Below, piece by piece: positions 33,262 through 37,197 of a stretch of DNA of 64,000 bases (positions are counted from its first letter, which is position 1; each line of letters begins with the position of its first letter). Location: the NCBI GenBank assembly GCA_019637095.1, contig JAHBWG010000001.1:124001-188000 (forward strand), read 5' to 3'. Under the pieces are notes generated by a model. The model searched no databases. It saw only the letters and a program-made list of their open reading frames with translations, and was not told the origin of the DNA. The DNA is from Sandaracinaceae bacterium (GTDB lineage Bacteria > Myxococcota_A > Polyangia > Polyangiales > Sandaracinaceae). The translations under genes were made by a program, and so were the position numbers.

Positions 33262-33365
33262 GAGGCGGGTCGACGGGTCACGCGCCCGGCTCGCCGACGT
33301 AGCGGTCGAGCCGGCCCCGGGCCGCCGAGATCCCGTTCGCGCCGGCGGAGGGTATGCTCGGGCAG

Positions 33366-34880
33366 ATGCAACGGCTGCGCTGGCTCGTCGGGTTGGCGGC
33401 GTTCGCGTGCGCGCCGAGCGGGGCCGAGCTCGCCGTCGAGGTCCGCACGGACTTCGCGCCGGGCGACGAGCTCGCCGCGGCGCGCGCCGTGCTCGAGGCG
33501 CAGCCGGGCATCCGCGAGCGCGCGGCCGAGGTCCCCGCCCTGAGGGGCCAGGACTTCCGCGGCGGGCGCCGGATCGCGACGTTCGACGGAGTACCCCTCG
33601 GCGACCGCGTCATCCGCGTCGATCTGCTCGACCGAGACGGCGCGGTGCTCGTCAGCCGACGCGTCGCGGTCGAGCTGCGCGCGAGCCGTGTCGTCGTCGC
33701 CGTCATGAGCCGTGCGTGCCGCGACGTCGAGTGCCCGCGACCCGGTGCCCCCGACGCGACCGAGTGCCAGGCGGGCGTGTGCGTCGCGCCGAGCTGCGGC
33801 GCGCTCGGCGAGCGCTGCGCGCCGTGCGCGCGCGACGATGACTGCGCGACGACGATCGCCTGCGCGCGCGGCCGCTGCCGAGACGGCGCGTGCGAGCAGC
33901 TCGCCGACGACACGCGCTGCGCGCCGGGCGCCGCCTGCGACGTGGACCTCGGCTGCGCACCGAGCGCGGCCCCGGACGCAGGTGCGGGGCCGCCCGACGC
34001 GGGCGCGATGGACGCGGGCGCGATGGACGCCGGCATCGACGCCGCGACCGGGATCGACGCCGGTCCGAGCCCGCTGGATGCCGGCACGCCGCCGCGCGAC
34101 GCGGGGTGCACGCGCTCGTGCGCGGGGAGGATCTGCGGCGACGACGGGTGCGGCGCGACCTGTGGATCGTGCACGGGGACTTGCACGTCCGGGGACTGCC
34201 TCGCGCCGCCGTCGACCACCGCGACGCTGTGCGTGGACGGCCTCGCGAGCTCGTGCGGAGGCTCGTGGACGGGCTCGACGTGCTGCGTCGCGGGAGCCTC
34301 GGCGTGCGTCACGGGCAACGGCGCGTCCTGCATGGGCGCCCCCCTCGCGTGGACCGGCGCGGCGTGCTGCCTGCGCGCGGTGGGGCGCTGCGTCGACGGG
34401 AACGGCGCCTCCTGCATGGGCGGCGGCCGGCGGTGGACGGGCGCGCGGTGCTGCGTCGAGAACGCGACCGCGTGCGTCCCGGGCAACGGCGCATCGTGCA
34501 TGGGCACCTCGCTCGCGTGGACCGGCGCGGAGTGCTGCTTCACCGCGCCGGGCCTCTGCGTCGACGGAAACGGCGCCTCCTGCATGGGCGGTGGCCGGCG
34601 CTGGACGGGCAGCCGCTGCTGCGTCGAGGGCGCGACCGCGTGCGTCCCGGGCAACGGCGCCTCGTGCATGGGCACCTCGCTCGCGTGGACCGGCGCGGAG
34701 TGCTGCTTCACCGCGCCGGGCCTCTGCGTCGACGGAAACGGCGCATCGTGCATGGGCGGCGGCCGCCGCTGGACCGGCAGCCGGTGCTGCGTCGAGGGCT
34801 CGCCGAGCTGCGTGAGCGGCTCGGCGAGCAGCTGCGCGTCGGGCGGCGGCGCGTGGACCGGCAGCCTGTGCTGCCATTGA
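33366..34880 (+). CDS. Secreted Cys-rich protein with eight 28-residue repeats
   Basis: 504 residues from ATG 33366 (ATG 33354 is an alternative with GGAGGG too close to it). Possible lipoprotein: MQRLRWLVGLAAFAC. Residues 20-110 form a beta domain; then Cys-rich spacer, a DAG/DAGAMDAG tether (residues 200-240), the segment CAGRICGDDGCGATCGSC common in myxobacterial surface proteins, and finally eight tandem repeats. The unit is C-V-x-G-N-G-A-S-C-M-G-x4-W-T-G-x2-C-C-x6; six inner units are exactly 28 residues, the first is 25 and the last ends CCH at the stop. Units alternate between GGGRRWTGSRCC and TSLAWTGAECC types, so the DNA repeats with an 84-bp and a stronger 168-bp period. No match to a family I know. 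Confidence 0.85.
   Translation: MQRLRWLVGLAAFACAPSGAELAVEVRTDFAPGDELAAARAVLEAQPGIRERAAEVPALRGQDFRGGRRIATFDGVPLGDRVIRVDLLDRDGAVLVSRRVAVELRASRVVVAVMSRACRDVECPRPGAPDATECQAGVCVAPSCGALGERCAPCARDDDCATTIACARGRCRDGACEQLADDTRCAPGAACDVDLGCAPSAAPDAGAGPPDAGAMDAGAMDAGIDAATGIDAGPSPLDAGTPPRDAGCTRSCAGRICGDDGCGATCGSCTGTCTSGDCLAPPSTTATLCVDGLASSCGGSWTGSTCCVAGASACVTGNGASCMGAPLAWTGAACCLRAVGRCVDGNGASCMGGGRRWTGARCCVENATACVPGNGASCMGTSLAWTGAECCFTAPGLCVDGNGASCMGGGRRWTGSRCCVEGATACVPGNGASCMGTSLAWTGAECCFTAPGLCVDGNGASCMGGGRRWTGSRCCVEGSPSCVSGSASSCASGGGAWTGSLCCH
34481..34800 (+). repeat. 168-bp tandem DNA repeat inside the Cys-repeat gene
   Basis: The unit beginning GGGCAACGGCGC at 34481 recurs at 34649, 168 bp later, with only a few third-position differences over its length. 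It encodes two 28-residue protein units (one of each type). The high identity points to recent duplication or ongoing homogenisation. Confidence 0.85.
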
Positions 34881-36961: not shown

Positions 36962-37197
36962 TGCGGCGCGCGATCGTCGCGGTGGCGCTCGGCGCGGCGC
37001 TGCTCGCCGGCTGCATCCGGCAGTCGTTCGACCTCTGCGCGGAGGAGCCCCCGCACCCGGACTGCGCGCTCGACGCGGGAGACGACGCCGGCGGCGGCGA
37101 GGACGCCGGCGACGACGCGGGACACGACGCCGGCGACGACGCGGGACACGACGCCGGCGACGACGCGGGACACGACGCCGGCGACGACGCGGGTTGA
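36961..37197 (+). CDS. Small DAG-repeat lipoprotein
   Basis: 78 residues from ATG 36961: MRRAIVAVALGAALLAGC lipobox, a short CAEEPPHPDCALD segment, then only DAGDDAGHDAG-type repeats to the stop. There is no folded domain, so the mature product is a lipid-anchored acidic tether of about 60 residues. It may be a decayed longer gene or an independent surface 'brush' lipoprotein. Coding 24-bp DNA repeats are listed separately. Confidence 0.75.
   Translation: MRRAIVAVALGAALLAGCIRQSFDLCAEEPPHPDCALDAGDDAGGGEDAGDDAGHDAGDDAGHDAGDDAGHDAGDDAG
37097..37190 (+). repeat. 24-bp tandem repeats coding DAG units
   Basis: The unit GACGCCGGCGACGACGCGGG plus ACAC repeats three times and a fourth in part, encoding DAGDDAGH. 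The copies are almost identical, so the length of the lipoprotein could vary by slippage in steps of eight residues. Confidence 0.85.

Follow-up and report, generated by a model that had tools for sequence, protein, structure and literature searches.

A four-cysteine tandem repeat of predicted myxobacterial lipoproteins, with a signature that is uniform within each array

Described repeats and the array in the window

Myxobacteria have large sets of modular surface proteins, and the binding heads of these proteins are mostly unannotated. We describe one such head, now defined by its sequence, in which the scaffold can be separated from a signature that is specific to each array. The repeat belongs to a known kind, the extracellular cysteine-rich tandem repeats. 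The family is undescribed in the libraries that we searched, and we found no paper in the literature that names such a repeat.

One described module with the same order of cysteines is the fungal cellulose-binding CBM1 (as in Trichoderma Cel7A and Cel6A), a small beta module, some 30 residues long, that also has the W-[ST]-G-x2-C(C) motif. Unlike CBM1, our repeat is in tandem, bacterial, and without a catalytic domain, and the aromatic residues found on the CBM1 binding face are absent from many of its units. Also, the CBM1 type of disulfide pairing is impossible in every repeat unit, as one cysteine would be used twice. The galaxins (coral and mollusc matrix proteins) are secreted and have tandem repeats of about 30 amino acids with dicysteine motifs; in Amgalaxin-like 1, each 29-amino-acid unit has one CC and two single cysteines (PMC2726143). 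However, the single cysteines are three residues apart in galaxin and seven apart in the myxobacterial repeat, and the matches are weak. The ice-recrystallization-inhibition beta-roll of grasses (PF21300; PDB 3ult) is a repetitive array with a similar heptad Phi-x-G periodicity, but the aligned stretch of 3ult has no cysteines, the matches are below the cut-off, and there was no fold match. Finally, the myxobacterial surface protein TraA has tandem cysteine-rich repeats (TIGR04201), which were proposed to form a rigid stalk (PMC3325183). In contrast to TraA, the family that we describe is of the lipoprotein type, with no MYXO-CTERM after the array and no PA14 domain, and neither the window protein nor the arrays had an NCBIfam match to TIGR04201.

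The window (the 64,000-nucleotide stretch of Sandaracinaceae DNA that was analysed) contains an ORF at 33354..34880 on the + strand (stop codon at 34878-34880; all features of this gene are on the + strand). It encodes a protein of 508 amino acids, with an alternative ATG at 33366, and homologous arrays with the same architecture are present in 19 other genomes. The original prediction of an eight-fold cysteine repeat is borne out at 34230-34877 (amino acids 293-508), five bases inside the claimed start. Each unit follows C-x2-G-x4-C-x(3-6)-W-T-G-x2-C-C and has one tryptophan and four cysteines (32 cysteines in the array), which was correctly noted to be enough for two disulfides per unit. Chance origin is excluded because there are 20 further arrays of this unit, with the same architecture. 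Two antisense ORFs (811 and 1318 amino acids) cross 34230-34877 on the minus strand; they are most likely spurious, as GC3 is 96% in the array.

Units 2-7 are exactly 28 amino acids (84 bp) each and alternate between two types, CVDG..GGGRRW..CCVE[NG]ATA and CVPG..TSLAW..CCFTAPGL. Type B comprises unit 2 (34305..34388), unit 4 (34473..34556), and unit 6 (34641..34724); type A comprises unit 3 (34389..34472), unit 5 (34557..34640), and unit 7 (34725..34808). The two end units are divergent. Unit 1 (34230..34304; 25 amino acids) contains GLASSCGGS, and unit 8, the C-terminal cap (34809..34877; 23 amino acids), contains GSASSCASG and ends in CCH, followed by the stop codon. The alternation is visible in the DNA, where TRF scored a 168-bp period at 807 (89% matches) and an 84-bp period at 416 (69%), and in the protein, where identity within the window array was higher between units i and i+2 (0.77) than between i and i+1 (0.54; permutation p = 0.004). 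The copies had also been said to differ mainly at third codon positions. This is so within a type, where units 4 and 6 have a single, synonymous difference (1/1 at position 3) and the other comparisons gave 8/12 (5 vs 7) and 5/9 (3 vs 5), but not between types (14/36 for unit 4 vs 5). Within-array pN/pS was below 1 throughout (0.31-0.88), which is consistent with purifying selection on the protein sequence.

The proposal of a true period of 56 residues is not supported in general. Alternation at p < 0.05 at the protein level was found in the window array, in L038 and L040 (from one genus), and in L042; by the same permutation test it is absent from L034, L036, L045, and L051, while L043 and L044 are too short for a firm result. 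(Related loci are given by L numbers.) Because of these non-alternating arrays, and because other arrays have 3, 5, or 7 units, the 56-residue period is not an obligate structural unit. It looks like divergence or duplication of dyads on top of a 28-residue unit.

Upstream of the array, the protein begins with a signal peptide (33354..33410) that ends in LAAFA|C, a lipobox-like sequence with Cys19 as the putative lipidation site. In a pattern scan of 18 members, this lipobox (AFAC) was weaker than in most relatives. The N-terminal display module follows (33423..33956), with about 95 amino acids without cysteine and then a cysteine-rich stretch (amino acids 122-201). There are 15 further stretches similar to this module in the same genome, in about a dozen other proteins, whose C-terminal parts are RCC1-like repeats, LamG-like, InlB-like, or otherwise cysteine-rich (domain names assigned by eye). 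As the module recurs with different C-terminal parts, the array is one of several heads on a common module, which is probably surface-exposed. Between module and array are a DAG/PDAG-rich low-complexity linker (33960..34103; TRF rows at 33964-34034) and a short cysteine-rich segment, CTRSCAGRICGDDGCGATCGSCTGTCTSGDCL (34107..34202). A segment similar to the latter also precedes the array in L050.

Relatives and matches to known families

A profile of the unit, run on Myxococcota genomes, found the repeat in 19 of the 317 genomes of the class; including one MAG labelled Archangiaceae, there are 21 arrays, with 3-8 units each (those of L051 and L006 are cut off by the contig ends). An earlier profile built from two units had matched 4 of the 377 genomes of the phylum. 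The enlarged profile matched 22 of the 317 genomes of the class, three of which we discarded; the matches in G580, G581, and G469 (E about 8e-4) are different sequences and not the four-cysteine repeat. We also rejected L003, L052, L053, and L054, as other cysteine-rich or chance sequences. Among 371 completeness-filtered genomes of the phylum, there was no convincing match outside the class. The distribution is patchy: in the window's own family, Sandaracinaceae, the repeat is present in 1 of 10 genomes, namely the source genome. That genome has a second, more divergent array of four units (L002/L058; L002 1501-1959, contig C118:33616-34074, - strand).

Outside of Myxococcota, the search covered one genome contig scan (with window peptides) as well as collections of plasmids and phages, Pfam, and PDB. 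The contig scan found L004 alone, a five-unit lipoprotein in the MAG labelled Archangiaceae. A tblastn search of plasmids gave 28 weak matches (24 from Klebsiella); the one that we checked lies in unannotated DNA next to a gene for replication initiation, and we rejected them. The phage collection gave no match, and viral contigs gave no usable locus. When the viral contigs were scanned with the L034 array, one IMG/VR stretch was counted as encoding a relative of it, which could reflect carriage by a virus or a mis-binned contig.

In the relatives, the array is at the C terminus of every complete member examined, and 17 complete arrays stop 1-4 amino acids after the last CC. Most of the proteins start with a lipoprotein signal, with clear lipoboxes in the pattern scan such as LGAC, LVAC, LLAC, and VVGC. 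No neighbouring genes are conserved except between close relatives, so the repeat gene appears to be stand-alone. Upstream of the array, eight relatives (those with arrays L038-L044 and L046) have in common another conserved cysteine-rich domain (NGGCPxxP..SCxxYxDCxPxCCxC..YLAAACVDGVC; ORFs L060-L067, for example L060 6800-7768 on the - strand). This domain had no Pfam match in the two members tested.

In line with the original prediction, no family in Pfam, NCBIfam, or PDB reached its threshold for the repeat protein, and EGF and WAP, which had been raised as possible explanations, were not among the Pfam matches. Several families matched below their cut-offs, in counts that are not independent proofs, as these arrays are relatives of one another. 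CBM_1 (PF00734) matched 10 of the 21 arrays (best E = 0.0017), with 19.5 bits for a window unit and 18.6 for the window array (gathering score 20.6). LbR_Ice_bind (PF21300) also matched 10 of the 21 (best E = 8e-6), with 24.5 bits for L062 and 12.2 for the window (gathering score 30). Galaxin_repeat (PF24748) matched 6 of the 21 at E ≤ 1 (best E = 0.00085), and the window array was not among these. None of 20 column-shuffled arrays matched any of these three families, so the resemblances reflect the order of the residues and not mere composition. Shuffled arrays did give chance matches to unrelated Pfam families, down to 1e-8, so we do not trust single E-values on these repeats. PDB 3ult matched the array profile at E = 0.001, with an alignment that looks like low complexity, and a single-sequence search of PDB gave no match. 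Matches to iRhom with the first profile (E of 0.06-0.07) vanished with the wider profile.

The repeat does share with CBM_1 the C-C-C-C order with W/Y-[ST]-G-x2-C between the first two (alignments A3 and A4). The resemblance to CBM_1 is closest in this order, but the profile-profile comparison gave an hhalign probability of just 12%, and we do not file the protein as a CBM_1 member. The three co-planar aromatic residues with which CBM_1 binds cellulose have no counterpart in the NGAS of the window signature.

The signature around the second cysteine

A more telling pattern than the alternation is a short signature that is specific to each array and uniform over its units. It consists of the four residues before the second cysteine (m1-m4) and the two after it (b1 and b2); in the window it is NGASCMG. 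Among inner units, identity at the signature is 79-89% within arrays versus 10-36% between arrays. By comparison, the tail after the CC is 18-48% identical even within arrays.

This uniformity is not just due to recent copying, because the codons differ synonymously as they do at invariant positions. Of pairs of units with the same residue at a signature position, 17-41% use different codons, and the synonymous difference at invariant positions is similar (0.39 for G and 0.31 for T). For example, the serine of TFSG in L050 is encoded by TCT, AGC, TCG, and TCT.

In two pairs of orthologs, the switch of the signature affects every inner unit. The units of L038 can be aligned one to one with those of L040, and their tails match, yet all five inner units have YCS in one and SCI (once SCV) in the other; the cap unit has SCT in both. 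Similarly, each of the three inner units of L046 has S at m3 where L039 has L. The short signature segment thus changes in a coordinated way across inner units. This may be due to selection for matching units or to short tracts of gene conversion. The leucine codons at m3 of L039 are TTG, TTG, and CTC, which favours more than one event. We think that this family is a clear case for studying how the repeats of a single protein come to evolve together. The natural pairs also make function testable, as they offer a direct route to what the signature recognises.

Fold, cysteine pairing, and function

Structure prediction succeeded for two units and failed for the array. The two-unit AlphaFold model (units 5-6; an alignment of 11 rows, all from the window and L004) has a mean pLDDT of 82 and a pTM of 0.60 and is mostly beta, with short strands near the W, the CC, and the first cysteine, a helical turn at the signature, and secondary-structure elements spaced by about 7 residues. 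The full 216-amino-acid array, with a two-row alignment, was modelled poorly (pLDDT 48). Foldseek found no solved fold like the two-unit model, and no structural relative emerged from VIA-align or from a Foldseek search of the viral library.

In five members (L034, L035, L045, L048, and L058), the lipobox cysteine, which is probably the lipid anchor, is the only one in the mature chain ahead of the array, so the cysteines of the array must pair within the array. Pairing within each unit is simplest, as arrays begin at the first cysteine of a unit and end at the last, and the odd numbers of units (3, 5, and 7) fit this. Alternatively, the cysteines of the array may pair by ring closure.

We are fairly confident that these proteins are an exported, disulfide-bonded lipoprotein family. 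More tentatively, and with somewhat less than even confidence in the statement as a whole, we propose that they are lipid-anchored, disulfide-closed beta modules that present identical ligand contacts. The putative lipoprotein signal would tether the N-terminal module and the DAG-rich linker, which would hold up a C-terminal row of beta modules of 28 residues. Two disulfides would close each module; they would form inside the array and, in the simplest case, inside a single unit. The stretch around the second cysteine (NGASCMG in the window) would be the repeated ligand-contact surface. Since it is identical in the inner units, many weak contacts could add up, and a change of ligand would be expected to alter the signature in all units together. 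This segment falls where CBM1 has its ligand-contact tyrosines, in an alignment by eye with the Cel6A sequence. By a loose analogy to the binding of cellulose by CBM1, a polysaccharide, or some other repetitive surface, is the likeliest ligand. Some arrays have aromatic residues in the signature, and many, including the window's, do not. Against multivalent binding, there is no ligand, enzyme, or transport partner in a conserved neighbourhood, and the uniformity of the signature could instead arise from gene conversion or from packing between units.

If packing is the cause, then the array could be a rigid, protease-resistant stalk or a framework of the extracellular matrix, whose units are uniform because they stack into a ladder via the signature. 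We consider this possible but rather unlikely. Packing, too, would select for matching units within an array; the number of units varies, from 3 to 8; and similar roles were proposed for the cysteine-rich tandem repeats of TraA (PMC3325183) and for the galaxin repeats (PMC2726143), which are matched weakly by 6 of the 21 arrays. However, all complete members carry the array at their free C terminus, so there is nothing beyond it to hold up, while TraA presents a PA14 domain; and the signature differs freely between arrays.

The 28-residue unit is built on a 7-residue x-Phi-x-G pattern, and this raises another explanation, which we view as unlikely: a continuous, disulfide-stapled beta-solenoid to which each unit contributes four x-Phi-x-G-x3 heptads, comparable to the left-handed beta-rolls of the grass ice-recrystallization inhibitors, possibly with a flat face that binds ice, mineral, or a crystalline polymer. 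Judging from column composition, with p-values that were computed after the pattern had been seen, the fourth heptad position (unit residues 4, 11, 18, and 25) is G/N/D at frequencies of 1.00, 0.82, 1.00, and 0.59 (mean 0.85; permutation p = 0.0003), and the second (residues 2, 9, 16, and 23; mainly V, C, W, and V) is hydrophobic or cysteine (p = 0.012). The spacing of elements in the two-unit model and the matches to PF21300 (in 10 of the 21 arrays and 0 of 20 shuffles) and 3ult agree with a solenoid. But the PF21300 scores that we saw are all under the 30-bit cut-off, and the 3ult alignment is of the low-complexity kind; Foldseek matched the two-unit model to nothing, and that model has a helical turn at the second heptad; and some units have loop insertions between the second cysteine and the W, or altered tail lengths.

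A more specific version of ligand binding seems to us improbable. The array might be a polymorphic recognition head, with many copies of a signature specific to the strain or species on a common disulfide scaffold, all of them rewritten in concert when the partner changes (through selection for matching units or through gene conversion over short tracts). This might include homotypic kin recognition between cells.

It is very improbable that the cysteines are reduced thiolates that bind metal, as in a metallothionein-like surface store or sensor. The four invariant cysteines per unit, including the CC, would provide 32 of them in the window array, but export and the lipobox imply an oxidising compartment, no gene recurs nearby, and the invariant W-T-G and the beta pattern are not typical of metallothioneins. 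Least probable of all is that the array is secreted and antagonises other cells in the manner of a defensin or knottin: small disulfide-rich units with a CC do recall knottins, but there is a lipid anchor, no immunity or transport genes recur nearby, and the support from PADLOC is a weak match of two members to one candidate model (PDC-M13C).

The genes that flank the repeat-protein gene encode an acyl-CoA dehydrogenase and a protein kinase, and they suggest nothing specific about its function. Low-complexity repeats of the DAG type (GDDAGHDAG), like the linker of the repeat protein, are also found in the window at 2766-2882 and at 37071-37193. The latter is inside a small predicted lipoprotein directly before a protein kinase gene.
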